Origin: Bacteroidales bacterium
GTDB taxonomy: Bacteria > Bacteroidota > Bacteroidia > Bacteroidales > UBA932
Assembly (NCBI GenBank): GCA_017551405.1
Contig: JAFZLP010000014.1
Span: forward strand, 1-13,065
Length of the DNA stretch: 13,065 bases
Direction of reading: 5' to 3'
Shown: piece after piece, positions 1-13,065 of the stretch
Layout of the letters: each line of letters starts with the position of its first letter
How positions within the stretch are numbered: the stretch's first letter is position 1
Notes under the pieces: model-generated
What the model was told of the DNA's origin: nothing
Database searches by the model: none
Seen by the model: only the letters and a program-made list of their open reading frames with translations
Made by a program: the position numbers and the translations under genes

Positions 1-386
1 ACCGCCTCGGCGACTGGAAAGGCCTCGATACAGGCGTCGCACCCGAGCAGGTGAAGGACGAGGAAATCCAGCCCGGCAAAGGCCCGTGGATGATGCTGGG
101 CCCCAGCGTGGGCCCGCCCGCATGCGAGCGCATCCGCTTCGGACGCGGAGTGTGCGGCACGGCATGGGCCGAAAAGCGCACCGTGGTGGTTCCCGACGTG
201 GACGAATTCCCGGGCCACATAGCGTGCAGCAGCGAGACTCGCTCCGAGATAGTCGTGCCCGTATTCAAGGACGGGGAGGTTGCCGGGGTACTGGACATCG
301 ACAGCCGCGAACCCGCCAATTTCGACAGCGTCGACGCGGGGTGGCTGGAAAGGATCTGCGCGCTGATCTCTTCGGCGCTTGCCTGA
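1..386 (+). CDS. msrC: Free methionine-(R)-sulfoxide reductase (GAF domain), 5' end cut off
   Basis: Seen: an open frame enters from the window edge (first whole codon at base 3) and ends at TGA 384-386. The translation carries the diagnostic core of the fRMsr family: PPAC, then RFGRGVCGTAW, then PGHIAC, then EIVVPVFKDGEVAGVLDIDS. The three family cysteines lie at codons 123-125, 153-155 and 225-227, so the catalytic set is complete. Known for the family: this GAF-fold cytosolic enzyme reduces free (not protein-bound) methionine-(R)-sulfoxide to methionine, with thioredoxin as usual reductant. The GTG at 51 is in frame but is not the real start, because the frame continues upstream and the N-terminal half of the fold is missing. 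Odd: about 25-30 residues (GDWKGLDTGVAPEQ... onward) lie before the LGP strand, where common homologues have a short turn. The gene converges on the sialidase gene with no base between the two stop codons. Confidence 0.88.
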   Translation, partial: RLGDWKGLDTGVAPEQVKDEEIQPGKGPWMMLGPSVGPPACERIRFGRGVCGTAWAEKRTVVVPDVDEFPGHIACSSETRSEIVVPVFKDGEVAGVLDIDSREPANFDSVDAGWLERICALISSALA

Positions 387-1610
387 TCAGCGGTACAAGC
401 CTCCTGTAATATCCGAGACTGACAGACGGCGGTAGATGAGATCGAAGCCGTCTTCTTTGAGTCCGTCTTCCCAGAAAGCCCCGACTGTGCCGTCGCGGAG
501 CAGGACGAGGTCGCTGTAGGCGCTGGAATGGTCGCTGAGGCGTATGCCCTTCTGCCAGCCTTCGGCGAAATCTTCCGACTCGTCATAGCTGTCCGGTCCG
601 GAGAGTTCCTTAAAGAAGATGCCCACATCGGTCCGGCTCCTCTGGAAAGTGATGGACTGGAGCGCCAGGCGGACTTTCCTTCCGTCTGAGACGCGCCTCG
701 CGGGCACCAGCAACAGCGCCCCGTTGCAGGCGTTCACCCCGTTCATGGCAGTGGCGTTCACGTCGTTCCCCCAGCTTCCTTCCGCTTTCTCCCTGTCGGT
801 GTAAGTGAAGACATTGAAGCCGCGGGCGCCGGGTTTGCGGACGCTCAGGAGCACGTTGCCGTCGGGCAGCTCCTCGCATTTCGACTCGTCCGCCGTGGCG
901 GAAGGCGGCGCATCGATGCTGCCGAGCACCTTCCACTGCTCTCCGAAATCGTCGCTGTACAACACATAAGTGCCTCCCGGACGGGTTGGGATGGCCGTGT
1001 AGATGCGGTAGTACTTGCCCACCTTTATCTGCCTGCTCTGGCACATTCGGCCGGATGTGAAGAAAATGCCCTGCGCCGGGCCGGCCTCGCGGCCGTCGAA
1101 AAGGGAGTAAACCGCTTCGGCCATGTCTTCGGCCTTTTCCCAGGTATGCCCGCCGTCGTGGCTGCGGTGCCGCACCGGGGACTGGAGGCTGTCGCGCTTC
1201 GAGAGATACCATGGCACATGCCCGCCGCACGACATGCAGAGCACCTCGTCGGAGCGGCGGTCCGCCACTATGGACGGGTCGCCGAAGGCATAGTTGAACT
1301 CGTTGCCGGCAAGTGTCGAATCCCCCGCCGCCATGAGCTCGGGAGCAGTCCATCCGGCGCCGAGGTCGGAACTGAAGGCCATGTGCAGGTCTATCGCTCC
1401 GAAGCCTATGTCGGAATGGCAGTAGCGGTAGTCGGCCAGGGCCACGAGCTCTCCGCGGCGGTTCTGGTCTATGGCCGGGATCCTGTACGGAACGCCGGTG
1501 GAATAGTTCTCGAATACGGTAACCTGGGGCGCAATCGGAACGGCCTTCGGGCCGCAGGCGGAGAATGCCGCAAGCGCTGCGGTCAGGGATATCAGGAGTT
1601 TGCGATACAT
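387..1610 (-). CDS. GH33 exo-alpha-sialidase (neuraminidase), lipoprotein
   Basis: This 407-residue protein is predicted to cleave terminal sialic acids from glycans. I chose the ATG at 1610 because it opens a lipoprotein signal peptide (MYRKLLISL...AFSAC, acylated Cys19); earlier in-frame ATGs lie inside the sulfatase gene. GH33 landmarks are all visible. YRIP holds a triad arginine (Arg43). Asp67 sits 24 residues later, the family spacing of the acid/base Asp. Glu242 and Arg258 lie in DESKCEELPDGNVLLSVR, with the expected 16-residue spacing. Tyr365 in SAYSDL is the expected nucleophile. Three Asp-boxes (SxDxGxxW) are at about 80-87, 150-157 and 219-226, and a degenerate one at about 326-333. 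I could not assign the third arginine securely. No acidic lipoprotein export signal follows Cys19, so a periplasmic-side location is possible; this is inference. It is the last gene of the transporter-sulfatase-sialidase operon, 7 bases after the sulfatase stop. There is no visible Shine-Dalgarno sequence. Confidence 0.92.
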   Translation of the reverse strand: MYRKLLISLTAALAAFSACGPKAVPIAPQVTVFENYSTGVPYRIPAIDQNRRGELVALADYRYCHSDIGFGAIDLHMAFSSDLGAGWTAPELMAAGDSTLAGNEFNYAFGDPSIVADRRSDEVLCMSCGGHVPWYLSKRDSLQSPVRHRSHDGGHTWEKAEDMAEAVYSLFDGREAGPAQGIFFTSGRMCQSRQIKVGKYYRIYTAIPTRPGGTYVLYSDDFGEQWKVLGSIDAPPSATADESKCEELPDGNVLLSVRKPGARGFNVFTYTDREKAEGSWGNDVNATAMNGVNACNGALLLVPARRVSDGRKVRLALQSITFQRSRTDVGIFFKELSGPDSYDESEDFAEGWQKGIRLSDHSSAYSDLVLLRDGTVGAFWEDGLKEDGFDLIYRRLSVSDITGGLYR

Positions 1611-1617
1611 ATCGTAA

Positions 1618-3129
1618 TTACATTTCATCCGGCCAGGGGCAGGGGGCTCCGGTGCGCACCAGCGAGGGCCGCTGGGCATCCACCTTCCGGAGGTATCTTC
1701 CGAGCCTGCGGCACAGCCTCTTCACCGTCCGGGGCCTTTCAGCCGCCAGGTTGACGGTTTCCCCTATGTCTTCCGCTATGTTGAACAGCTCGTCATGGCC
1801 GTCGGCATAGTAGTGGATAAGCTTCCAGTCGCCCATGCGGATAGTGCAGGTCGGGCCTATTCCGGGGCCCGGATCCCCCCAGATATTGGGGTAGTTCCAC
1901 ACCATGAATCGATGCCTCGGGCGGCGTGACGGATTCCTCAGGAGGGGCACGAAACTCTTTCCGTCCACCTTCTGCGGCACATTCCATGAGCGTATGCCCG
2001 CGATTTCGAGTATGGCGGGGAAGAAATCTTCTATGATGAGGGGCGTGGCGCAGCGGCTGCCGGGATTTGCAACTCCGGGCCAGCGCACTATCATGGGCTC
2101 GCGTATGCCGCCCTCGTATGCCGAGCCCTTGCCGCTGTTCAGGGGATAGTTCTGGGTGTAGAGGGGCTCGTCCCTCCACCATGTGCGGGTGCAGTACCCG
2201 CCGTTGTCGGACATGAAGATTACCACGGTGTCGTCTGCCAGGCCGCGGGCGTCCAGCCAGTCCATCAGGTCCCCAAGGCTCTTGTCCATGCCTTCTATCA
2301 GCGCGGCGTAGGCCGCCTCCTTCTCGCTCATGCCCTTGTCGAGGTATTTTTGGAAGAAGCGCGGGTCGCGGTCTATGGGGACATGCACGGCGTAGTGCGC
2401 CATGTAAAGGAAAAACGGGGCGGAAGCGGTGTCCAGGGCCGCCAGGGCCTCCTGCGTGAGCGCCTCGGTGAGGAAGGTGCCGCTGTCCCAGTACTTCTCC
2501 AGCCCAGGAATCGCGAAGGCCGAGACGGGAGTGCCGTCGGCAGCGTGGCCGTAGTTGTCTTCGGACAGATATGAGGCCGGACCTCCGCCGGCGTGTCCGG
2601 CTATGTTCACGTCGAAACCGAGTCTGAGCGGATCTTCCCCGGGGGTTCCGATTGCGCCGAAATGCGCTTTGCCGCAGTGGATGGTATGATAGCCGTTCTC
2701 CCTGAGTATCTGCACGAAAGTCTTGCAGGGGAAGGTATTGTTCACTCCACCTACGGGCGAGATGCCGTTGTAGTTCCAGTCGGGCAGGGCGAGGGTGTCG
2801 CAGGGGATGTCGGTGCTCTCGTCCCTGTTCAGAGTCCAGTTGGTGACCCTGTGCCTCGCGGCATTGGCGCCGGTGAGGAGGCTGCACCTGCTGGGGGAAC
2901 TGATGCTGCTGGCGTAAGCCTGGGTGAACATCATTCCCTGCGAGGCCAGACGCTCCATGTTGGGCGTCTCATACAGGCCGTTGTTGGGGACCGGCTGCGA
3001 CCAGAACGGCACGGAACTGTCTTCCCAGCCCATGTCGTCCACCATGAAGAGCACTATGTTGGGATGCCGCTGCGCCATCGCCGGGACGGCTGCGGCAAGT
3101 CCGAACGATATGAGGGCGAACCTGTTCAT
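1618..3129 (-). CDS. Secreted Ser-type S1 family sulfatase
   Basis: This 503-residue arylsulfatase-superfamily enzyme hydrolyses sulfate esters, presumably on a glycan. The start at 3129 gives a clear signal peptide (MNRFALISFGLAAAVPAMA, likely cut after Ala19), placing it in the periplasm. Metal-site residues are Asp31-Asp32 (MVDDMGW) and Asp308-Asn309 (MSDNGG). Lys154/His156 lie in GKAHFG, and a second lysine is in GKGSAYEGGIREP. The active-site signature is SSPSRCSLLTG at 77-87. Ser77 occupies the formylglycine position, so this is a Ser-type sulfatase needing the radical-SAM maturase anSME, which is not in this window. C-terminal features such as the IRMGDWKLIHYY strand are present, so the protein looks full length. 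I cannot assign substrate or subfamily from sequence alone. Its ATG overlaps the transporter stop (TGATG), implying translational coupling, and the sialidase gene follows 7 bases later. Pairing with a sialidase suggests host mucin or similar glycans (inference). Confidence 0.93.
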   Translation of the reverse strand: MNRFALISFGLAAAVPAMAQRHPNIVLFMVDDMGWEDSSVPFWSQPVPNNGLYETPNMERLASQGMMFTQAYASSISSPSRCSLLTGANAARHRVTNWTLNRDESTDIPCDTLALPDWNYNGISPVGGVNNTFPCKTFVQILRENGYHTIHCGKAHFGAIGTPGEDPLRLGFDVNIAGHAGGGPASYLSEDNYGHAADGTPVSAFAIPGLEKYWDSGTFLTEALTQEALAALDTASAPFFLYMAHYAVHVPIDRDPRFFQKYLDKGMSEKEAAYAALIEGMDKSLGDLMDWLDARGLADDTVVIFMSDNGGYCTRTWWRDEPLYTQNYPLNSGKGSAYEGGIREPMIVRWPGVANPGSRCATPLIIEDFFPAILEIAGIRSWNVPQKVDGKSFVPLLRNPSRRPRHRFMVWNYPNIWGDPGPGIGPTCTIRMGDWKLIHYYADGHDELFNIAEDIGETVNLAAERPRTVKRLCRRLGRYLRKVDAQRPSLVRTGAPCPWPDEM

Positions 3130-4022
3130 CAGAGACTGCCGGCAGTGAGGAGCATTATGCCGCCGAGGAGCAGGAGCATGGCGAGCCCCTTCCTGCCGAG
3201 GTTCTTTTCCCTGAAGATCCATGCGCCCAGCAGGAAGGTGACTATCACGCTGCTGCGGCGGACCAGGGAGATTATGCTGAGCATGGCTCCGGGCTGCTTG
3301 AGGGCGAAGAAATAGAAGGCGTCGGCCAGGGTGATGAACACGGCGATAAGTACCAGCATCCAGTCCCAGGTGAACTTCGGACGCTCTCCGGCAGGCCCCG
3401 TGCAGGCCTTGATTATGACCAGCACGGCAAGGATGACGGTTACGAAGAAGTTGGCCCAGAACTGCACGAACATCGGGTCCATGTCCAGCCCGGCGAGGAT
3501 GCGCTTGTCGTAAAGCGCGCTGGCCACGCCGGCCAGAATGGAGACCACGACGGCCCAGAAGCCCTTGCTGCTGCTGAACTTTATGCCCTCGCCCGCCGAC
3601 GTGCGGCTGAGCAAGTACAGGGCGGCCAGCACGACCACCACGCCGCACCACTGCAGCACATTCAGCCTTTCTCCGAACAGGATGATTGAGAAGAGCACCA
3701 CGAACATGGGCCTGGAGGCCTTGAGGGTGCTTACGGTGGTTATGGGAAGCAGCTTGAGGCCCATCATTCCGGCCACCCATGAGACGGACACGAGCACGGC
3801 CTTGAGCATGAGGCAGAGATAGTGCTTCGCCGGGGCTGCGAAGACCGCATTTCCCCCGGGAGCCACCGGCCCGAAGAACAGGAACGGGAAAAGGATGAGC
3901 GTGGTCATCAGCGTGGCTGCCAGCAGCACGTGAAATACGTTGTTTTTGGCAAGCGCCTTCTTTTTGGCGACGTCGTATACTCCCAGCAGGAAAGCCGACG
4001 CGAGTGTCATCCAAATCCACAT
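3129..4022 (-). CDS. EamA/DMT superfamily inner-membrane transporter
   Basis: This 297-residue, very hydrophobic protein has about ten predicted membrane segments in two EamA-like halves. Examples are the conserved stretches around ASRPMFVVLFSIILFGERLN in the first half and SLVRRSSVIVTFLLGAWIF in the second. Members of the drug/metabolite transporter superfamily move small metabolites across the inner membrane; the substrate cannot be read from sequence. I chose the ATG at 4022 because the N-terminus MWIWMTLASAFLLGVYDVAKK matches the usual start of this Bacteroidota family, with the first helix beginning at once. The open frame continues upstream but would run through the promoter. This is the first gene of the minus-strand operon. 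A TATTTTTG box lies directly upstream, and the stop codon overlaps the sulfatase start by one base (TGATG). Coupling to glycan-degrading enzymes suggests uptake of a released sugar or export of a by-product; that is inference. Confidence 0.88.
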   Translation of the reverse strand: MWIWMTLASAFLLGVYDVAKKKALAKNNVFHVLLAATLMTTLILFPFLFFGPVAPGGNAVFAAPAKHYLCLMLKAVLVSVSWVAGMMGLKLLPITTVSTLKASRPMFVVLFSIILFGERLNVLQWCGVVVVLAALYLLSRTSAGEGIKFSSSKGFWAVVVSILAGVASALYDKRILAGLDMDPMFVQFWANFFVTVILAVLVIIKACTGPAGERPKFTWDWMLVLIAVFITLADAFYFFALKQPGAMLSIISLVRRSSVIVTFLLGAWIFREKNLGRKGLAMLLLLGGIMLLTAGSL

Positions 4023-4029
4023 AACACGG

Positions 4030-4037
4030 CAAAAATA
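4030..4037 (-). promoter_or_regulatory. Bacteroidota -7 promoter box for the transporter-sulfatase-sialidase operon
   Basis: Read on the minus strand the bases are TATTTTTG, a match to the Bacteroidota -7 consensus TAnnTTTG. They lie only 7 bases before the transporter ATG. No clear -33 TTTG is visible at the expected distance; that position is filled by the -7 box of the opposing uvrA promoter in inverted orientation. If transcription starts about 4 bases after the final G, the leader would be only a few bases long. Confidence 0.6.
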
Positions 4038-4051
4038 CGCAATAAATTTCG

Positions 4052-4059
4052 TAATTTTG
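4052..4059 (+). promoter_or_regulatory. Bacteroidota -7 promoter box for uvrA
   Basis: TAATTTTG matches the TAnnTTTG consensus and ends 9 bases before the uvrA ATG at 4069. The predicted start site would leave a leader of roughly 6 bases. It faces away from the minus-strand box at 4030-4037, with exactly 14 bases between them. There is no recognisable -33 element and no LexA-type palindrome, so SOS control of uvrA is not evident here. Confidence 0.6.
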
Positions 4060-4068
4060 CAGTACCCG

Positions 4069-6933
4069 ATGGCAAAAGAGGAATACATCAGCATACGCGG
4101 TACGAGAACCCACAACCTGCAGAATGTCAGCGTCGACATTCCCCGCGGGAAGTTCACCGTCATAACCGGCCTCTCCGGCAGCGGAAAGAGCTCCCTCGCC
4201 TTCGACACCATCTACGCCGAGGGCCGCAGGCGCTACATGAACACCCTCTCCCCCTATGCCAAGCATTTCATGGGAATACTCGAAAAGCCAGAGGTGGAAA
4301 GCATCGAAGGGCTCTCCCCCATCATAGCCATCGAGCAGAAGACCACCGGCAACAATCCCCGGAGCACCGTCGGCACCATCACCGAAATCTCCGACTTCCT
4401 AAGGCTCCTCTACTCCAAGGCATCCACCGCCTACTCCCCCGTCACCGGCAAGGAGCTGGTGCGCTATACCGACGAGCAGATAGTGGACCTCATCATGAAG
4501 GAGTACGAAGGCCGCAGGTGCCTGCTCCTCGCCCCGCTTGTCCGTGGCCGCAAGGGCCACTACCGCGAACTTTTCGACCAGATGCGCCGCAAGGGCTACA
4601 CCCAGATCCGGATAGACGGCGAGGTGCTTGCCCTGAACGACGTGGAGCAGCTGGACCGCTACAAGGTCCACTTCATAGAGCTGGTGGTGGACAAGCTCAA
4701 GCCGGGCGAAGGCGACGAAAAGCGCATCCGCGACTCAGTGGTCGCCGCACTTGGGGTAGGAAAAGGCTCCCTGGCCATCCTGGACGCCGAAACCGGAGAA
4801 CTCCGCCACTTCTCGAAACACCTGATAGACCCCGAGAGCGGCCTTTCCCTCCAGGAGCCTCAGCCCCACACCTTCTCCTTCAATTCGCCCGAAGGCTACT
4901 GCCCCCACTGCAAGGGCCTCGGCACCGTCCCCGACATCAATCCCTCCTCGATAATACCCGATCCCGACGTGAGCATCGCCGACGGCGGAATAGTTCCGCT
5001 CGGGCGTCCGCGCGAGAACAAGAAGTTCGATATTATCAGGGCCATCGCCCGCAAATACGATTTCTCCCTGTACGACCCCATCGCCACCCTCCCCGACGAA
5101 GTGGTGAACCTGCTCATCTACGGTTCTGACGAGTTCTTCCGCGTGGGCGAAGGCAATCTCATGCAGATGGTGAGCTGGCCCGGCGTGGTCGACGACATCG
5201 AAGACAAGGTCGTCTGCCCCGTCTGCCACGGGTCGCGCCTCCGCGAGGAGACCAATTTCTTCAAGATAGACGGCAAGACCATAGCCGAAGTGTCGGCAAT
5301 GGAGATTTCGGCCCTCCACGCCTGGCTCGGGCAGCTCTCTGGCAAGCTCAGCGGCAGGGCGGCGGCCGTCTCGCACGACATTCTCAAGGAGCTTCACGAC
5401 AGGGTCGGCTTCCTCATGAACGTGGGTCTGGAGTACCTTACGCTCGACCGCGCCACCGGCTCGCTGTCGGGAGGCGAAAGCCAGCGCATCAGGCTCGCCA
5501 CCCAGATCGGCTCCCGCCTCGTCAATGTCATCTACATTCTCGACGAGCCCTCGATAGGGCTGCACCAGCGCGACAACCACAAGCTCCTGAGCTCTCTGCG
5601 GGAGCTCCGCGACGAGGGCAATACCGTGATCGTGGTGGAGCACGACGAGGCCACGATGCGGGCCGCCGACTACCTCGTTGACGTCGGTCCCGGCGCCGGC
5701 ATCCAAGGAGGCCGCATAGTCTACGCGGGGCCTGTACCCGGAGAGGCGGGTACTCCCCCTTCGGGAGTTCGCCCTTCGGGCTCACCCCACCATCCCTTCG
5801 GGACGGTCCCCCCGCTATCGAACCGCGGGTGTTACGTCCCTCAGGGGGAGTCCCGCCTCTCCGAAACGCTGAAGTATCTGCTGCGGGAAGAAACCATCCC
5901 GGTGCCGCTGGAAAGGCGGAAGGGCAACGGCCGAGTGCTGGGCCTCCACGGCGCCTGCGGCAACAACCTCCGCAGCGTGGACTTCGACATCCCCCTGGGA
6001 TGCCTCGTCGGCGTAGCCGGAGTCAGCGGCAGCGGGAAATCGTCCCTGGTGAACGAAACCCTGATGCCCGCCCTGAAACGGGTCTTCTACAACTCCAAAC
6101 AGAAGCCCCTGCCCTTCCGTGAGATCACAGGCATCGACAACATAGACAAAGTCATAGAGGTGGACCAGAGCCCCATCGGCCGCACGCCAAGGAGCAATCC
6201 CGCCACCTTCACCGGCGTCTTCGACGACATCCGCAAACTGTTCGAAGACACCCCCGATGCCAAGGTGCGCGGCTTCAAGGCGGGGCATTTCTCCTTCAAC
6301 GTCCCCGGAGGCCGCTGCGAGGAGTGCAAGGGCGCCGGCCTCAAGGTCATAGAGATGAACTTCCTGCCCAGCGTCACCGTGCCGTGCGAGCAGTGCCGCG
6401 GCAGGCGCTACAAGGAAGACACCCTCGCCGTGCACTACAAGCGCAAGAACATCTCGGACGTGCTGGACATGCCCGTATCCGAGGCATACGAGTTCTTCAA
6501 GACCCATCCCAAGATAGCCCCGAAGCTCAAGGCCATGGTGGACGTGGGGCTTGGCTACGTGCATCTGGGGCAGTCTTCCGTGACCCTCAGCGGCGGGGAA
6601 AGCCAGCGCATGAAACTGGCCGCCGAGCTTTCCAGGAAGGCCACCGGCAACTCCCTCTACATTCTCGACGAGCCCACCACCGGCCTGCATTCAGCAGACA
6701 TAAAAGTGCTTCTGGACGTGCTCCAGAAGCTTGTGGACCAGGGCAATACGGTAATAATCATAGAACACAACATGGACGTGCTAAAGAGCGTTGACTATCT
6801 CTTCGACCTCGGCCCGGCAGGCGGCGCCGCGGGCGGCCTCATAGTCGCCAAAGGCACGCCCGAAGAAGTGGCGGAGAATCCGGCTTCGGTCACCGCCCCA
6901 TATCTGAAACAATCCTTGTATGAAACAGAGTAA
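4069..6933 (+). CDS. uvrA: Excinuclease ABC subunit A (UvrA), with an in-frame palindromic insertion
   Basis: This 954-residue cytosolic ATPase scans DNA for bulky lesions with UvrB in nucleotide-excision repair. The ATG at 4069 gives the canonical N-terminus (ISIRGTRTHNLQNVSVDIPRGK). First ATPase half: Walker A GLSGSGKSS at 34-42, signature LSGGESQR, Walker B YILDEPSIGL. Second half: GVSGSGKSS, LSGGESQRMKLAAEL, YILDEPTTGLH. The motif SPIGRTPRSNPATFTGVFDDIR and the C-terminal zinc module (CEECKGAG ... CEQCRGRRY) are intact. Odd points: the classical CPxC pair before FSFNSP is DPES here (254-257), so the first zinc module is degenerate, although CPHC (278-281) and CPVC (383-386) remain. Residues about 557-599, in the linker between the two ATPase halves, are Gly/Pro/Ser-rich and encoded by hairpin-rich DNA. 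That stretch is flanked by normal sequence (DVGPGAGIQGGRIVYAG before, ETLKYLLREETIPVP after). The stop overlaps the next gene by 14 bases. Confidence 0.97.
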   Translation: MAKEEYISIRGTRTHNLQNVSVDIPRGKFTVITGLSGSGKSSLAFDTIYAEGRRRYMNTLSPYAKHFMGILEKPEVESIEGLSPIIAIEQKTTGNNPRSTVGTITEISDFLRLLYSKASTAYSPVTGKELVRYTDEQIVDLIMKEYEGRRCLLLAPLVRGRKGHYRELFDQMRRKGYTQIRIDGEVLALNDVEQLDRYKVHFIELVVDKLKPGEGDEKRIRDSVVAALGVGKGSLAILDAETGELRHFSKHLIDPESGLSLQEPQPHTFSFNSPEGYCPHCKGLGTVPDINPSSIIPDPDVSIADGGIVPLGRPRENKKFDIIRAIARKYDFSLYDPIATLPDEVVNLLIYGSDEFFRVGEGNLMQMVSWPGVVDDIEDKVVCPVCHGSRLREETNFFKIDGKTIAEVSAMEISALHAWLGQLSGKLSGRAAAVSHDILKELHDRVGFLMNVGLEYLTLDRATGSLSGGESQRIRLATQIGSRLVNVIYILDEPSIGLHQRDNHKLLSSLRELRDEGNTVIVVEHDEATMRAADYLVDVGPGAGIQGGRIVYAGPVPGEAGTPPSGVRPSGSPHHPFGTVPPLSNRGCYVPQGESRLSETLKYLLREETIPVPLERRKGNGRVLGLHGACGNNLRSVDFDIPLGCLVGVAGVSGSGKSSLVNETLMPALKRVFYNSKQKPLPFREITGIDNIDKVIEVDQSPIGRTPRSNPATFTGVFDDIRKLFEDTPDAKVRGFKAGHFSFNVPGGRCEECKGAGLKVIEMNFLPSVTVPCEQCRGRRYKEDTLAVHYKRKNISDVLDMPVSEAYEFFKTHPKIAPKLKAMVDVGLGYVHLGQSSVTLSGGESQRMKLAAELSRKATGNSLYILDEPTTGLHSADIKVLLDVLQKLVDQGNTVIIIEHNMDVLKSVDYLFDLGPAGGAAGGLIVAKGTPEEVAENPASVTAPYLKQSLYETE
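5734..5863. repeat. Palindromic, hairpin-rich element inserted in frame within uvrA
   Basis: The outer arms 5739-5760 and 5843-5863 are reverse complements of 21 bases, broken only by one extra T at 5751. Inside lie several smaller hairpins. ACTCCC/GGGAGT is at 5752-5757 and 5763-5768, GCCC-TTC-GGGC at 5771-5781, and TCCC-TTC-GGGA at 5793-5803. GGGA-CGG-TCCC is at 5800-5810 and CCCGC/GCGGG at 5811-5815 and 5825-5829. The left edge forms GTACCCG/CGGGTAC (5734-5740, 5747-5753). CCCTTCGGG occurs three times within 50 bases. The frame stays open through the element, giving a Pro/Gly/Ser-rich peptide not expected in UvrA. This resembles a mobile REP-like or RPE-like element that landed in a tolerant linker. 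I see no second copy in the window. Confidence 0.8.
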
Positions 6934-7921
6934 AATCAACGCGGCCAGACAGGAATACAAAGCCTGGTGCAGGGCCATCGGCGTAGACAGCCTCCCCAAA
7001 CTCAACGAAGTGCTTGCCGAAGGGCAGGGAATCCCCCTCATCAACCTTTGCGAGGCACGCCAGGAACGCAAATATGCGGAAATAGCCAACCAGATTTTCT
7101 GGCGCCGCAGGAAAAACCGCATCGTGATGATGTCAGGCCCCTCCAGCAGCGGCAAGACGTCCTCTTCGCTGCGCATCGCACAGCAGTGCCGCGTGCTGGG
7201 CATCAATCCCAGGGTGATCGAGCTGGACAATTACTTCGTGGACCGCGAGCATACGCCGAAAGACGCCAACGGCAACTACGACTTCGAGTGCCTCGAAGCG
7301 ATGGACGTCGAGCACCTCAACAGCGACCTCAACGACCTGCTGGCCGGCAAGGAAGTGATAATCCCCCGTTTCGATTTCAAGGAAGGGCGTTCCTTCATGG
7401 AGGAAAATCGCCGCATGAAGCTGGAGGCCAACGACATGCTCTTCATGGAAGGCATCCATGCCCTGAATCCCGCCCTGACCCCGAACGTGGATCACACCAA
7501 GATATTCGACGTCTACATCTCGGCCCTTTCGGCCATCAACGGAGGCACCAAGCTGCACGGCTCCACCACCGACAAGAGGCTCCTGCGAAGGATAGTCCGC
7601 GACAACCGCGTGAGAGGCATCTCCCCCGAAGAGACCATACTCCGCTGGCCCAGCGTCCGCCACGGCGAAATGAAGAATATCTTCCCCTATGAAGAGAATG
7701 CCGAAGCCGTGTTCAACTCCTCCATGCTGTACGACGTGCCGCTGCTCAAATACTATGCGGAGCCGCTGCTCTACGGCATCACGGAATCCAGCCCGGCCTA
7801 CAGGAAGGCGCAGGACCTGCTGCATTTCCTCTCCCCGGTCACTCCCCTCAAGCCCAACGAAATAGCCGCCATCCCTCCCACAAGCATCATGCGGGAGTTC
7901 ATAGGCGGCCAGAGTCTGTAA
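6920..7921 (+). CDS. Uridine-kinase-like nucleoside kinase, short form without TGS domain
   Basis: This 333-residue cytosolic P-loop kinase belongs to the phosphoribulokinase/uridine kinase fold. Walker A is GPSSSGKT at 73-80. Other family landmarks follow in order: ELDNYFVDREHTP, a YDFECLEAMD acidic motif, MEGIHALNP, and the lid/basic region DKRLLRRIVRDNRVRG. The close of the domain is WPSVRHGEMKNIFPYEENAEAVFNS. Such proteins phosphorylate nucleosides, probably uridine/cytidine, in salvage; the exact substrate is not determinable. Many bacterial homologues are about 550 residues, with an N-terminal TGS and tRNA-synthetase-like editing domain. This one keeps only the kinase part plus about 65 leading residues with the usual LPKLNEVLAEGQGIPLINLCEARQ helix. 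The ATG at 6920 is the first start in this frame and overlaps the end of uvrA by 14 bases, so it is probably cotranscribed with uvrA. Its stop (TAA) directly abuts the convergent protease gene. Confidence 0.86.
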   Translation: MKQSKINAARQEYKAWCRAIGVDSLPKLNEVLAEGQGIPLINLCEARQERKYAEIANQIFWRRRKNRIVMMSGPSSSGKTSSSLRIAQQCRVLGINPRVIELDNYFVDREHTPKDANGNYDFECLEAMDVEHLNSDLNDLLAGKEVIIPRFDFKEGRSFMEENRRMKLEANDMLFMEGIHALNPALTPNVDHTKIFDVYISALSAINGGTKLHGSTTDKRLLRRIVRDNRVRGISPEETILRWPSVRHGEMKNIFPYEENAEAVFNSSMLYDVPLLKYYAEPLLYGITESSPAYRKAQDLLHFLSPVTPLKPNEIAAIPPTSIMREFIGGQSL

Positions 7922-10900
7922 TTATTTCGCTGCTTTAAGCATCTCGGCCACGGCGGCCTCGAGCTGGGCATCCTCGCCACGCTGGACGGCTGCCGGGTCA
8001 TTATACACCGTGATGTCGGGTTCGAGCTGGTCGTTCTCGAGGAAACGGCCTTCCATGATGCTCCACGAGCCGATCTGGGGGATGCCGAAGATGAGGGTGG
8101 GATCCACCTGGGTCTCCCACCACACGCTGGTGGCGGTACCTGCGACCGGAGCGCCGATAATCTTTCCTATGCCCAGCGAGCGGTACACGTACGGGAAACC
8201 GCAGGCGTCGGAATAGTTGTCTTCGCAGATGAGCACGCAGGACGGCTTGTTCCACTTGTCATACGGCTCCGGTGACGCCGCGGCGCCGCGGGGACGGCGT
8301 TCGGTGTAGAGCCTGCCGTTCAGGAACGACGCCAGGTCGTTATGGAGCCATCCGCCGCCGTTGTGACGGGTGTCCACGATGAGGGCGTCGCAGCCCCGGT
8401 ACTTGCCCAGCGCCTTGGAATAGACCTCCCTGAACGACGGGGAGTTCATTCCCTGGACATGGACATAGCCGACGCGGCCGCCCGAAAGTTCCCTGACCTT
8501 CTCTTCGTTGTGACGCACCCACCTCTCGTACAGGCCGCGGCTGTCGCTGGCCTCGGGCTTCACGTACACCTTCTTGCCGGCCACGACAATGGGGATGCGC
8601 TTGCCCGTCTTGCGCTCGAAGGCCTGATACCAGCGCTGACCGGCCGGGACGGGCTTGCCGTCGACCGAGGTAATCACGTCGCCGGGCTTGAGCGTAGGTT
8701 CAGCGGTGAGGAGGATGCTGCCGGGAAGGAACTCCCTGATTTTCAGGCCCTCGCCGGTATAGGTGTCATCGAAGATAACGCCTATGCGGCCGACCGGAAC
8801 TCCGCTGCCGTCGCGGTAGCGGCCGCCGGTATGCGAACCGTTGAGCTCCCCGAGCATCTCGGACAGAAGCTCCTGGAATGCGTAATTGTCGGTAATATAG
8901 GGGAGGAACTGGCGGTAGTTCGCGGCAACCGCGGGCCAGTCCACGCCGTGGAGGTCCTCCACGTAGAACTTGCTTGCAACCTGGTTCCAGCAGTGCTCGA
9001 AGATGTACTCGCGCTCCTTTGCGGGGAAATACTCATATTCGCCGCTGAAGTTCACCGGGGTGGATTTGCCGGATGCGAGGTCGTATTTCTCGATGCTGCG
9101 CCCCACGATGAACAGGTTCTTGCCGTCGGGCGAGGGAATGAAGCGGCCGCGGACATCCTTCTTGACAACCTTGATGTCGCCCTTGCGGATATCGAGGCAG
9201 CACAGGTCCATGCCCTTCTCGAGCTGGGTGGTATAGTAGAGCTTGGTGCCGTCCGGCGTAAGGAAATGGTTTCCGATGTTGCCGGAATTGCGGGTGAGCC
9301 GCACGATGCGGTCTTCCCTGCGGGCGAGTTCGAGCTTGAGGGGTTCGGGCTTGCCTTTCGCGGCATTCGCGCTGTCCTTGGCCTCCTTCTTTTCTTCCTT
9401 CTTCTTGTCCTTGGGATCCTGGAGGAGCTTTTCTATGTCCTCGACCTCCTTGTCGCGGGAGAACTCCATGAAAGCCTTGTCGTCGAAGAACATCACGTAA
9501 ACGTCGCCTTCTGAACCCCAGCTGCCGTGGCTGCGGTAGCCCTGCTTGTCACTCACCCAGGTCATGGCCTTTCCGCCCATGGCCCAGTTGAAATCGGAAT
9601 CGGAGTAGCCGCTCGCGGTGAGGTCGGTGAGCGTGCCGTCCTCGACGTTGATGAGGGCGATGTCCTCGTTGTACATGCGGCCTTCACCCTGGTACACGGT
9701 GAGTATCCACCTGCCGTCGGGGCTCCATTCGAAGGGCATGTCGCCGTCGGAATAGGAGAAGTTCGCGCCCTTCAGCAGGCACTTCGCGTTCTTGCCGTCG
9801 GCATCGGCCACCACCAGTTCGGCGCGGTTGCGCAGATACGCCACCTTCTTGCCGTCGGGGCTGGCCTTGGGCTGGAAGCAGAGCTGCCCCACGGGCGTAA
9901 TCCGCTCTTCTTCAGTGTTTTCCGCAAAAGTGAAATAAGATTCGTTCTTACCCTTGAGCACCCTGCGGTACACGGCCCATTCGCCGTCACGCTCCGAATC
10001 GTAATAGAGCACCTTGCCTTCCTTGCCGAAGGACACAGTGCGCTCCTGTCCGGGAGTTTCGGTGATGCGGCGGGTGTCGCTGAGGTCGAGAGTGGTGGTA
10101 TAGACGTCCCCGCTGGAGACGATGGCTATCTCCTTGCCGTTCGGGGACACCGCTCCGCCTGCGACTCCCGTGGCCTTGCGCCAGACATGATCCTTCAGGC
10201 CCTTGTCTTTCCGCAGCGAAACTTGCAGCTTGACGGGCTCGGTACCCTCCCTGAGGGTGTAGAGGTCGCCGTTCCAGCTGAAGCACATGGTGCCTTCGCG
10301 GGAGATGCTGAGGAAGCGCACCGGCGCGCCGGTAAAATGCGTGAGCTGCTCCCCGCTCCCCTTGAACACGTTGTTGTCGCCGCCCCAGTCGTCCACCTTT
10401 GGATCGGAAGTGAGGGGGCCGTTGATGGACTTGCTGCGGGCGCCGCCCTTCTCGCTCAGGTAATAATAGTTGACTCCGTCGGGGGCCCACACGGGGTTGG
10501 TATCCTCCCCAACGTAGCCGGTGAGCTTGGTATAAACGTCGCCGTCTTTCTTCCAGATGTCGCGGGTGACGGCGGAAGTATGATGCTTGCGGAAGCTGTC
10601 TTCATAGCCCTTCCAGTCCTGGTAAAGCATTGTACCATTGGTATTTACGGACATGTTGTCCACCTGGATCGAAAGCACCTGTACGGGAACCGGCACCGGC
10701 TTTCCGGCCTTTGCCGCCTCCAGGCCCTCGCTCAGGCTGATGCAGTAGAGCTTGCCGTCGCCGGGGAAGACCGACGAAACGGGATCTTCCTGGATGATGG
10801 CGCTGAAATACACCTTGCCGTCGGGTGCCACCGTGAGCGGGGTCTCGCGGCCGCCGAAGTCAGTGAGCCTGCAGGGGGTGCCTCCCTTCGCGGGAATCGC

Positions 10901-11194
10901 CCAGATATCCTTGCTGCCCTCGCGGAAGGATGCGAATACGATGTACTCGCCGTCCAGGCTCCAGAGGGGCTCGGTGTCATGTGCGGGATTGGTGGTGAGC
11001 TGCACCGCCTCGCCGCCGGAGGCACTTACCGTGAAGATGTCCCCCTGGTAGACGAAGGCAACGGTGCTGCCGTCCGGGGAGATGGCATTCTGGCGGAGCC
11101 AGCGGGGTGTGGTCTGACAATTAGCCGTTTGAACGGATGCGCAGGCTGCGCCGAGAGTCAGGGCAGCTGCAAGGATGAGGATTCTGTTTTTCAT
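7922..11194 (-). CDS. Secreted Tricorn-like S41 family protease
   Basis: This 1090-residue protein has the layout of Tricorn core proteases. It starts with a signal peptide (MKNRILILAAALTLGAACA), followed by two beta-propeller regions with TolB/PD40-type repeats (SPDGSTVAFVYQGDIF, APDGKVYFSA, SPDGKKVAYLR and similar) up to about residue 690. A helical C1 domain, a PDZ domain at about 798-870 and an S41 catalytic core from about 905 follow. His788 in NGSHTGG (with the preceding Ser) and Ser995 in DNYSDA match the Tricorn catalytic His and nucleophile. LIVDTRHNGGG is the usual S41 strand. It presumably degrades peptides in the periplasm. The Cys18 context (LGAAC) is a poor lipobox, so acylated versus cleaved-soluble is open. 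A highly charged Lys/Glu-rich stretch (about 590-620) interrupts the second propeller. I chose the ATG at 11194 because it opens the signal peptide; an upstream in-frame ATG lies beyond the promoter box. Confidence 0.93.
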   Translation of the reverse strand: MKNRILILAAALTLGAACASVQTANCQTTPRWLRQNAISPDGSTVAFVYQGDIFTVSASGGEAVQLTTNPAHDTEPLWSLDGEYIVFASFREGSKDIWAIPAKGGTPCRLTDFGGRETPLTVAPDGKVYFSAIIQEDPVSSVFPGDGKLYCISLSEGLEAAKAGKPVPVPVQVLSIQVDNMSVNTNGTMLYQDWKGYEDSFRKHHTSAVTRDIWKKDGDVYTKLTGYVGEDTNPVWAPDGVNYYYLSEKGGARSKSINGPLTSDPKVDDWGGDNNVFKGSGEQLTHFTGAPVRFLSISREGTMCFSWNGDLYTLREGTEPVKLQVSLRKDKGLKDHVWRKATGVAGGAVSPNGKEIAIVSSGDVYTTTLDLSDTRRITETPGQERTVSFGKEGKVLYYDSERDGEWAVYRRVLKGKNESYFTFAENTEEERITPVGQLCFQPKASPDGKKVAYLRNRAELVVADADGKNAKCLLKGANFSYSDGDMPFEWSPDGRWILTVYQGEGRMYNEDIALINVEDGTLTDLTASGYSDSDFNWAMGGKAMTWVSDKQGYRSHGSWGSEGDVYVMFFDDKAFMEFSRDKEVEDIEKLLQDPKDKKKEEKKEAKDSANAAKGKPEPLKLELARREDRIVRLTRNSGNIGNHFLTPDGTKLYYTTQLEKGMDLCCLDIRKGDIKVVKKDVRGRFIPSPDGKNLFIVGRSIEKYDLASGKSTPVNFSGEYEYFPAKEREYIFEHCWNQVASKFYVEDLHGVDWPAVAANYRQFLPYITDNYAFQELLSEMLGELNGSHTGGRYRDGSGVPVGRIGVIFDDTYTGEGLKIREFLPGSILLTAEPTLKPGDVITSVDGKPVPAGQRWYQAFERKTGKRIPIVVAGKKVYVKPEASDSRGLYERWVRHNEEKVRELSGGRVGYVHVQGMNSPSFREVYSKALGKYRGCDALIVDTRHNGGGWLHNDLASFLNGRLYTERRPRGAAASPEPYDKWNKPSCVLICEDNYSDACGFPYVYRSLGIGKIIGAPVAGTATSVWWETQVDPTLIFGIPQIGSWSIMEGRFLENDQLEPDITVYNDPAAVQRGEDAQLEAAVAEMLKAAK

Positions 11195-11210
11195 ATGATT
11201 GCGGATTACA

Positions 11211-11218
11211 CAAAGATA
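11211..11218 (-). promoter_or_regulatory. Bacteroidota -7 promoter box for the Tricorn-like protease gene
   Basis: On the minus strand this reads TATCTTTG, a full TAnnTTTG match, 16 bases before the ATG at 11194. The predicted leader is about 13 bases. No separate -33 TTTG is visible. Confidence 0.65.
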
Positions 11219-11232
11219 CAAAAATTATTCTC

Positions 11233-11240
11233 TATCTTTG
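11233..11240 (+). promoter_or_regulatory. Bacteroidota -7 promoter box for recO
   Basis: TATCTTTG matches TAnnTTTG and ends only 5 bases before the recO ATG at 11246. With a start site about 4 bases after the final G, the transcript would be leaderless or nearly so. No other plausible recO start exists close downstream. Confidence 0.62.
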
Positions 11241-11245
11241 TGTAC

Positions 11246-11890
11246 ATGACGATCTCCACTCCCTTAATTGTGCTCAACACCACGAAGGTCGGCGACAGCA
11301 GCCTCGTGGTGCACGCCCTCAGCCCCTCCCTGGGCCGCAGGAGCTATATAATCGGAGTGGGCAAAAAGGGCGGCCAGGCCCTGTTCCAGCCGCTGAACAT
11401 CCTCAACGCCGAAGCGGTGGAGAATCCGAAATCGGACCTCTGGAGGCTGAAGGGAATCTCCTCCGCACAGCCCCTTTCAGGCATCCGCGCCAACATGTAC
11501 AAGAACAGCATGACCCTGTTCATGGCGGAGGTGCTTTTCCGCACGGTCAGGGGAGATGCCGAACCCGGGCTGTACGAGTGGTGCGAACGGAGCATACTAA
11601 CTCTCGACGCCCTCCAGAGCGACTTTGCGAACTACCATCTGCGCTGGCTGCTGGAACTGTGCGGCGCCCTCGGCTTTACCCCGTCGCCGGAAGACCTGGC
11701 GCCGTTCGCCGGGGAACATCTGCGTGATATACAAGGGCTTATGGGGCCTTTCGAAGAATCGCTGCTGGTGCCTCTCAGCGGGCAGAGCCGCAGCGAAATC
11801 GCCGACTGCCTGCTGCAGTACCTCTCGGCGCATCTCGAGACACGCCTCAACATCAGGTCACTGGGGGTTCTTTCGGAGCTATACCGCTAG
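11246..11890 (+). CDS. recO: DNA repair protein RecO
   Basis: This 214-residue cytosolic protein has the RecO layout. The N-terminal OB-fold strands (PLIVLNTTKVGDSSLVVHAL, then LGRRSYIIGVGKKG) lead to FQPLNILNAEAVENPKSDLWRLKGIS. The helical domain has the usual KNSMTLFMAEVLFRTVR helix, an LDAL segment, YHLRWLLELCGALGFTPSPEDLAPF, and a C-terminal IRSLGVLSELYR. RecO binds single-stranded DNA and RecR and helps load RecA in gap repair and annealing. It is at the short end for the family, through a compressed region between the LGF helix and the C-terminus; no cysteine zinc motif is visible. The ATG at 11246 is supported because the OB fold begins immediately. It is divergent from the protease gene and overlaps the convergent rdgB by 12 bases. 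Confidence in family is good, though the sequence is divergent. Confidence 0.88.
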   Translation: MTISTPLIVLNTTKVGDSSLVVHALSPSLGRRSYIIGVGKKGGQALFQPLNILNAEAVENPKSDLWRLKGISSAQPLSGIRANMYKNSMTLFMAEVLFRTVRGDAEPGLYEWCERSILTLDALQSDFANYHLRWLLELCGALGFTPSPEDLAPFAGEHLRDIQGLMGPFEESLLVPLSGQSRSEIADCLLQYLSAHLETRLNIRSLGVLSELYR

Positions 11891-12481
11891 CCATTCCGCC
11901 ATCTTGCGGAGGGCGACGCCGCGGTGGGAAATGCCGTTCTTGACGTCTTCCGGAAGCTCGGCTATGGTCCTGTCGGGGAATGCATCCGGAACGAAAACCG
12001 GGTCGTAGCCGAAACCTCCGTCCCCGTGGCGTCTGCGGGCGATGCGCCCCTCCACCGTCCCTTCGAAATAATGCGGCACCCCGTCCGGCAGGATGAGGGT
12101 TGTGACGCACCTGAACCTTGCTGCTCCGGGGAAAACGTCTTCATCGGAGGACGGCCCGTAAATCTTCTCCAGCTCGGAAAGGAGCCGGTCGATGTTGTCC
12201 GCGAAATTGTGGTCGGAGGCATAACGGGCCGAATAGATGCCGGGGGCTCCGCCGAGGGCGTCGACCTCGAGGCCGCTGTCATCGGCAAAACAGCCCTCGC
12301 CGAGTCGGTCGAACAGGAACTTCGCCTTCAGCAGCGAATTCTCGATGAATGTGCTGCCGGTTTCTTCGGCTTCGCCTTCCACCCCCGCATCGAGGGGGCT
12401 GAGCACCTCGTAAGAAGGCCCCAGGATTTCACGGGCCTCCCTCAGCTTTCCGGGGTTTCCGGTCGCAAAATAGAGCTTCAT
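11879..12481 (-). CDS. rdgB: Non-canonical purine NTP pyrophosphatase (RdgB/HAM1 family)
   Basis: This 200-residue enzyme hydrolyses dITP, dXTP and ITP to monophosphates and pyrophosphate, keeping deaminated purines out of DNA and RNA. The length is typical of the family and the motifs are complete. They are TGNPGKLREAREIL at the N-terminus (substrate-binding TGNxxK at 7-12), FADDSGLEVDALGGAPGIYSARYA around residue 70-90 with the metal-binding acidic residues, GFGYDPVFVP near 155-165, and KNGISHRGVAL at 181-191. The ATG at 12481 overlaps the upstream protease stop in the form ATGA, indicating translational coupling. No Shine-Dalgarno sequence is visible. The 3' end runs 12 bases into recO on the opposite strand. 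A functional link between a periplasmic-type protease and RdgB is not obvious; cotranscription may simply reflect genome compaction. Confidence 0.97.
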   Translation of the reverse strand: MKLYFATGNPGKLREAREILGPSYEVLSPLDAGVEGEAEETGSTFIENSLLKAKFLFDRLGEGCFADDSGLEVDALGGAPGIYSARYASDHNFADNIDRLLSELEKIYGPSSDEDVFPGAARFRCVTTLILPDGVPHYFEGTVEGRIARRRHGDGGFGYDPVFVPDAFPDRTIAELPEDVKNGISHRGVALRKMAEWLAV

Positions 12482-13065
12482 ATCTTGATCAGCGGGCTTT
12501 CAAGCGCCTTTTTGAGCGCGTCGTCATAACGGATCACCATCTCTACCCCTCCCTCCTGGAAGTAGTAGCGGGTGACTATCTCCTGCTCGATGAAGGGCAC
12601 AATCTCGTCTTTCTTCAGGCGGAGGAACTCTTCCTTGTCCATATCCATCCTGTCTTTCAGGGCCTTCAGCTCGGGAGCCAGGGCTTCCTCGAGGCCGTCC
12701 TTGCGGAGCTCGCCCACCATGCGGTCATAGGTAGCCTGGGCCGAGGAGCGGGAGTCGAAGGTCTTGCCCTTCGCAAATTCCACGAAGGCGTCGTAGTCTT
12801 CGAAATGGAAGTCGCGCACCGCCGGAATGCTCTCGTGGGCGCGCACGTATTCCATTGCGTACTGTTCGACTATCCCGTTGACTACCAGCGAATAAGCCAG
12901 GCGGCTGTACTCGCGCTGCGGGAGCTCCACGTCGGGAGTGATGCCGCCGCCGTCCCTGACCGTGCGCCCGTGGGCGGTTTTGAACTCATGGGTGAGGGAA
13001 TCGGGGATATGGCCCACCGAACCGTCTTCGTTGCGGTGCGAATAGTCGATGGCCTGCACGCAGCG
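12478..13065 (-). CDS. Carboxy-terminal-processing S41 peptidase, C-terminal part (5' end outside window)
   Basis: The frame enters from the right edge (codon CGC at 13065-13063) and ends at TGA 12480-12478; 195 residues are visible. The first part (CVQAIDYSHRNEDGSVG, then FKTAHGRTVRDGGGITPDVELP) is the characteristic end of the S41A/CtpA catalytic core in Bacteroidota. The remaining roughly 145 residues form the charged helical C-terminal extension usual for these proteins, ending in a short segment with ALKKALESPLIKI. The signal peptide, PDZ domain and catalytic Ser/Lys lie outside the window, so activity cannot be judged. Family members sit in the periplasm and cleave C-terminal tails. The stop overlaps the rdgB start by 4 bases. 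A GTG codon at 13059 is in frame but internal to the domain, so it is not the start. Confidence 0.9.
   Translation of the reverse strand, partial: RCVQAIDYSHRNEDGSVGHIPDSLTHEFKTAHGRTVRDGGGITPDVELPQREYSRLAYSLVVNGIVEQYAMEYVRAHESIPAVRDFHFEDYDAFVEFAKGKTFDSRSSAQATYDRMVGELRKDGLEEALAPELKALKDRMDMDKEEFLRLKKDEIVPFIEQEIVTRYYFQEGGVEMVIRYDDALKKALESPLIKI

Follow-up and report, generated by a model that had tools for sequence, protein, structure and literature searches.

An in-frame palindrome within uvrA is one copy of a dispersed Bacteroidales repeat with a conserved core and copy-specific arms

Results

An in-frame palindrome in uvrA belongs to a dispersed repeat

The window analysed here, a stretch of 13,065 nt from a Bacteroidales bacterium (contig JAFZLP010000014.1, positions 1 to 13,065), carries a palindrome within uvrA, and this palindrome is one copy of a dispersed repeat. 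The core of the repeat is structurally conserved, while nearly all copies have their own outer arms, which are complementary to each other and different from copy to copy. Alleles with and without the element exist. The best explanation for these observations as a whole is probably a lineage-specific mobile palindrome of Bacteroidales, apparently non-autonomous.

A sequence-only reading of the region had described a palindrome with 21-base arms, one bulged T and three copies of CCCTTCGGG, and all of these were found. Twenty-one pairs form between the outer arms, 5739-5760 and 5843-5863, and a single T, at 5751, is bulged; CCCTTCGGG starts at 5757, 5772 and 5794. Folding of bases 5734-5863 as RNA, a check that the same reading had put forward, gave -78 kcal/mol as compared to -52.5 kcal/mol (standard deviation 3.7) for dinucleotide shuffles (z -6.8; none of the 200 reached so low a value), and folding as DNA gave z -6.1 against shuffles. 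The uvrA reading frame is open through the palindrome, as had also been claimed, and the palindrome lies between two family-match stretches: UvrA scored above cutoff with both TIGR00630 and NF001503, the match being split in two with the first stretch ending at residue 555. The features of the element and its host gene are as follows.

4069..6933, + strand: host gene uvrA, 954 aa including the start Met (NCBIfam TIGR00630, NF001503; ATG start, TAA stop)
5739..5754, + strand: left outer arm (arm pairing 16/15 nt, score 13)
5749..5853, + strand: element peptide GTPPSG...QGES, approximately residues 560-594 of 953 (Met not counted), predicted disordered
5755..5848, + strand: conserved 94-nt core with the inner part of the outer stem (P0), P1, P2, P3 and an overlapping helix (covariance model R1, covariation)
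5849..5863, + strand: right outer arm, reverse complement of the left arm (arm pairing 16/15 nt)

The window core matched R1 positions 1-94 with 114.8 bits, the window itself being among the sequences used to build R1. In the AlphaFold model of UvrA (mean predicted local distance difference test score, pLDDT, 83.5), residues 559-595 were below 50, which is consistent with the insert forming a disordered loop.

The search of the genome for further copies, which the sequence-only reading had proposed, was positive. Seven copies were detected in the window's own genome by the broader covariance model R2, each within an open host reading frame, and many more were found in the genus. By DNA search, a second copy in the own genome (G000:C58) matched at 98% over 113 nt and lies in frame in rsgA, where it encodes the identical peptide GTPPSGVRPSGSPHHPFGTVPPLSNRGCYVPQGES. 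Within the genus, matches were obtained in at least 26 of 200 genomes by DNA search with the core (E≤1e-3), in at least 151 of 400 with R1 (E≤1e-3) and in at least 234 of 300 with R2 (E≤1e-5). Since a limited number of candidates was scored per genome (at most 4, 10 and 12, respectively), copy numbers in the genus are lower bounds, and genomes that appear element-free may hide copies. Beyond the genus the element was rare: with R1, 2 of 393 genomes of the order sample matched at E≤1e-5, namely the own genome and G576, and with R2 the own genome was the only one of 395 in the phylum sample to match at this threshold. Rfam gave ten matches to the window region at E 0.52 to 9.2, all below the gathering score, and none at E≤1 to the seven own-genome loci.

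A structurally conserved core

The core of approximately 94 nt comprises P0, the hairpins P1 and P2, and a P3 stem of the form CCC(G/T)C...G(C/A)GGG; a second helix, with the sequence CGTGCC/GGCACG or variants of it, overlaps P3. The sequence-only reading had counted at least five short hairpins; comparison of copies revised this, as the first CCCTTCGGG belongs to the outer stem, which encloses P1, P2, and the P3 stem with its overlapping helix. Across 31 distinct core sequences, 89.8% of cells were paired, as compared to 84.2% in shuffled and at most 47.5% in slid controls, and 11 core pairs were altered on both sides; P3 was invariant. In a second family of the element (CCCTC...GAGGG), the overlapping helix seems to co-vary as judged by eye (TG/CA, CG/CG, GC/GC, TA/TA). 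Given the loop lengths, a true pseudoknot would be tight, and P3 and the overlapping helix may be alternatives. Alignments of the copies contained 34 of 38 full-length copies (A1; without L013, L129, L155 and the second copy of L153), 34 of 35 (A2; second L153 copy left out), and 27 of 28 second-family stretches (L169 left out) together with 5 first-family copies (A5).

Outer arms are specific to each copy

Pairing of the arms was quantified for 132 copies, i.e. 136 matches less 1 duplicate and 3 without flanks. The median pairing score was 12, as compared to 1 for swapped controls in which the arms were taken from different copies, orthologous copies included. The arms reached at least the 95th percentile of these controls in 127 of the 132 copies and at least the 99th percentile in 112. 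Arm length quartiles were 15, 18 and 19 nt, and the excess of Watson-Crick pairs over shuffled partners extended up to 19 nt beyond the core, with little or none from 20 nt on. The arm sequences had little in common: at 22 of 24 positions on the left and 19 of 24 on the right, information content did not reach 0.5 bit, and its maximum was 0.81. Left arms are G-rich and hence have some common composition, and an inner CCCCC/GGGGG stem is common to first-family copies.

Both copies in G576 (L399, L401), the sole carrier in the order sample besides the own genome, share their arms, unlike the copies of the genus; in G576 the arms may be part of the element. On the basis of L013, a three-copy pattern X-core-X'-X was considered and rejected as a general feature, as no third copy was seen by eye in the window or in the RsgA copy.

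Alleles with and without the element

Relatives in the genus obtained by protein search were only approximately 50% identical in the query protein and too distant for empty sites to be defined at the DNA level, and element-carrying genomes were searched instead. The insert, whose absence from some relatives the sequence-only reading had put forward as a check, is present in uvrA of L013 as 126 nt that L017 lacks, with flanks 91-94% identical. Likewise, 123 nt of an AddB-like nuclease gene in G173 (L244) are lacking in G045 (L247), and 123 nt of truB in G045 (L375), here a second-family copy, are lacking in G120 (L380). The three sites share a polarity: the empty allele already contains the 5' arm, as an exact match in TruB and UvrA and an approximate one in the AddB-like gene. 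The 3' arm, by contrast, is additional sequence that repeats the left flank in inverted orientation. At the UvrA, AddB-like and TruB sites, BLAST alignments overlapped by 7, 4 and 2 nt. By comparison with copies whose left arm is in the empty allele, the left arm of the palindrome in uvrA may be native, and its right arm would by analogy be an extra inverted copy.

Two other origins of the paired arms were weighed against these alleles. The element could insert into pre-existing imperfect palindromes, i.e. target hairpins of which both arms are native. Such targets would fit the pairing of arms in nearly all copies, and also DsbD of G171 (L345), where the flanking alignment reaches the core position of L131 from either side. 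However, the empty alleles L017, L247 and L380 have no inverted partner, and in L345, where 11 nt replace the core, the allele could equally result from a core deletion; we therefore regard this origin as unlikely. Somewhat less improbable, though still doubtful, is that the arms were made complementary after insertion by template switching at the hairpin. This process, quasipalindrome correction, is a known mutation process in bacteria, and the SpoU-family copies L160-L163 differ in their arms yet remain paired. It does not readily account for the entire 3' arm being extra in TruB and UvrA, where native codons were not simply corrected, or for the excess of pairing stopping within approximately 20 nt of the core. 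TruB of G171 (L374), with arms of approximately 26 nt by eye, points against it as well, in the direction of very young insertions with perfect arms of full length.

Turnover at individual sites was also seen. G173 and G120 are 94.8% identical around the AddB-like gene and carry different element families at one site, so that turnover is recent. In-frame deletion derivatives or scars were recognized by eye in TruB L382, RsgA L196 and DsbD L345. Decay seems to proceed by in-frame deletions, which may explain part of the length variation of the UvrA linker.

Copies lie mostly in frame within protein genes

Open reading frames (ORFs) of 250 aa or more contained 121 of the 132 copies, although some of these ORFs may be spurious in GC-rich DNA. 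Where codon usage framed both sides confidently, 30 of 31 copies kept strand and frame without a stop, the exception being L329; in validation, framing was correct for 213 of 237 UvrA windows, on genes that had been used for training. Two of the six frames accounted for 12 and 11 of the 30 in-frame copies, and four open frames were present in 69 of 116 cores. The encoded peptides are rich in Pro, Gly, Ser and Asn and approximately 35-44 aa long.

In the own genome, the seven hosts are UvrA, RsgA, PolA, RecG, DUF2400, a GcvPB-like protein and Ala_racemase_N (YggS-like), with open frames in 7 of 7. Family matches flank the insert on both sides in UvrA, PolA, RecG and DUF2400, and RsgA, the GcvPB-like and the YggS-like protein were judged by eye. 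Further hosts belong to the TruB, SpoU, RsmG, TrmB, AtpG, DsbD, RdgB, shikimate kinase, RNase R, RluD, RnpA, IPP transferase and FtsK families. The sequence-only reading had offered a domesticated protein linker as one possibility. The inserts look tolerated by their hosts rather than clearly domesticated, and in-frame deletion derivatives exist.

Relative to the longest spanning ORF, 69 of the 121 copies were in the same and 52 in the opposite orientation, which bears on two further explanations. The strong fold and the covariation would suit a cis-acting RNA element or riboregulator that is maintained because it acts on the mRNA of its host, and an RNA structure affecting uvrA translation had been proposed. 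A role at the mRNA level is very unlikely because both orientations occur; moreover, the core is found in many unrelated genes, and relatives have the same gene without the element, so that the proposed effect on uvrA is not favoured. It is more improbable still, to the point that we give it almost no weight, that the element is an intervening sequence removed from the mRNA, as an intron would be, or bypassed by the ribosome. A long stem joining both ends is what such an element would presumably need, but an element that is removed would not need to be in frame and free of stops, as 30 of the 31 confidently framed copies are, and here too the two orientations argue against it.

A possible snap-back mode of insertion

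We tentatively suggest, as a reading that may well prove wrong, that the repeat represents a mobile element of a new kind, in the form of a single-stranded hairpin, possibly with a pseudoknot, which integrates by one end, copies approximately 15-19 nt of the target's 5' flank by means of its own 3' end, so building a target-specific stem at each insertion, and resides in coding sequence as a translated disordered loop. Under the best explanation given above, the 5' end of the folded single-stranded element would be joined to target DNA that offers a free 3' end. Its own 3' end, located in the hairpin, would then be extended back over the target flank (snap-back), and the long stem would be made by the element itself before the other side is closed. 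Snap-back priming would explain both the copy-specific complementary arms and the native flank on one side only. The survivors would be those insertions that lie in frame and give a flexible loop, and surviving inserts would decay via in-frame deletions, leaving short linker scars.

A Y1 HUH enzyme of the type of REP-associated tyrosine transposases (RAYTs; REP, repetitive extragenic palindromic sequence) could supply the free 3' end and the folded single strand needed. Among candidates for the mobilising enzyme, a RAYT-like Y1 HUH transposase comes first, as a lead based on association only. In a hand-picked set, Y1 genes (PF01797) were present in 8 of 12 element-rich genomes and in 0 of 8 genomes without R2 matches (Fisher p 0.004), and the best NCBIfam match of the Y1 proteins was REP-associated tyrosine transposase, below its cutoff.

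The Y1 (HUH) transposase-like proteins at L422-L427 are divergent, mostly of approximately 300 aa and nearest to RAYTs, and such proteins occur in many carriers including the window's genome. At one of these loci, in G065, two shorter palindromes flank the Y1 gene (L425:1330-1415 and 1865-1950); they share an inner core, CCTTCGGAGA/TCTCCGAAGG, and differ in their outer arms. This is a REPtron-like arrangement, with copy-specific arm behaviour in a different repeat.

Several observations weigh against parts of the best explanation, and no transposition was observed. The polarity of the arms comes from only three independent clean sites, which may represent gains or losses of the element: G099 (L376) holds a similar insert in TruB, so that the empty allele of G120 could be a loss. 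Among 17 pairs of alleles hand-picked from 166 rows, several of them non-independent and some with remnants in the "empty" allele, 14 had the shorter unaligned stretch on the left side and 2 (L060/L021, L260/L017) had it on the right, while in 1 pair both sides were equal. The window itself leans the opposite way when compared with L066 and L021 (34 against 11 and 37 against 17 nt), in alignments that at 72-78% identity and with 46-73 nt unaligned are too divergent to tell. The DsbD flanks of L345, aligning to both sides of the missing core, also fit a pre-existing palindromic target, and arms could be perfected after insertion. As to structure, further pair types were unexceptional (62 of 500 shuffles; one of five structure measures), and the overlapping helix was paired in 80.6% of cells, with 2 of its 6 pairs unpaired in 17 and 16 of the 31 sequences. 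Low AlphaFold confidence in the UvrA loop may partly reflect few aligned sequences there. Of the 129 copies assessed, only 31 could be framed with confidence; strand and frame were kept in 103 of the 129, and 82 of these were also stop-free. Open core frames were only slightly in excess (67% as compared to 59% shuffled). The link to Y1 genes is a count in 20 hand-picked genomes uncorrected for phylogeny, 4 of the 12 element-rich genomes gave no Y1 match, and at the six Y1 loci examined of 18 matches no clear element copy was nearby, with no R2 match below E 0.086.

Relation to known palindromic repeats

Rickettsia palindromic elements (RPEs) are described as palindromes of 100-150 bp, of several families, lying in frame in conserved Rickettsia genes, with different groups near one another in orthologous genes; RPE-6 is reported from a gene for an excinuclease ABC subunit and RPE-1 from truB (PMC10969869, PMC3767692, PMC3733652). 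The Bacteroidales element resembles RPEs, by these described features, in its in-frame insertion into conserved protein genes, and the idea of a Bacteroidota counterpart holds up as an analogy. It differs in lineage, in having a core with covarying hairpins and an overlapping helix, and in its target-matching, copy-specific arms. Moreover, the RPEs of R. conorii are described with a CGTC end (PMC3733652), unlike the present element, in which CGTC near the core is not conserved (within 30 nt on the left in 16 of 132 copies and on the right in 16 of 132).

With REPs, the element shares folded repeats, a strong overlap of hosts and the presence of RAYT-like Y1 proteins in many carrier genomes; intragenic REPs, like RPEs, have been described from uvrA, from the gene for DNA polymerase I, and from recBCD and truB (PMC3733652). 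REPs, of 20-40 bp, lie mostly between genes and have a GTAG or CGTC foot, whereas the present core is of approximately 94 nt and mostly within ORFs. GTAG was found within 30 nt in only 11 of 132 copies on the left and 6 of 132 on the right and is thus not conserved. REP-like in the strict sense, as the sequence-only reading had considered, is not the right description, and identity with REPs or bacterial interspersed mosaic elements is not supported, given that a conserved GTAG/CGTC foot is lacking and that ORFs of at least 250 aa contain 121 of the 132 copies.

Genes of RAYT subclass 2.6 of Bacteroidetes are flanked by "atypical secondary structures" that are repeated elsewhere in the genome (PMC6006769). 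The likeness to our element lies in the phylum and in unusual repeated structures, and the two may or may not be identical. Miniature inverted-repeat transposable elements (MITEs) are likewise short, apparently non-autonomous and dispersed, with inverted-repeat ends; here the inner CCCCC/GGGGG stem is shared within the first family, and the outer arms are not common to the copies. No target duplication of constant length was apparent in four comparisons of alleles 74-94% identical, which gave BLAST overlaps of 2, 4, 6 and 7 nt and included one AddB-like site twice. In the literature searched, whose coverage left out most subscription papers, this element family was not reported.

These comparisons suggest that translated palindromic insertions are not confined to Rickettsia or to REPs, because a family in one genus of gut Bacteroidota, lacking the REP features tested, hits strikingly similar genes (uvrA, polA, recB/AddB-like, truB). 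The element would be a natural source of loops and linkers in core proteins, and its target-matching arms make the movement of RPE-like palindromes directly testable from sequence.

Further observations on individual copies

At L093:2380-2431, a degenerate copy of the element directly adjoins the rsgA copy, and at L149:8971-9744, two copies in opposite orientation lie in one open frame of a shikimate-kinase-like gene. The cores of L145, L147, L150 and L157 contain, as seen by eye, a second small hairpin similar to CCCCGAAAAATGACAGTTTTCCGGGG, i.e. an element nested inside an element. At L157, the SpoU-family gene with its damaged element seems to be out of frame downstream, possibly as a pseudogene or through an assembly error. 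In the UvrA linker of L047, a stretch encoding CHPERSEGS lies beside a second-family copy; repeats in general seem to insert into the UvrA linker (L047; also L020, L034, L043 and L060).

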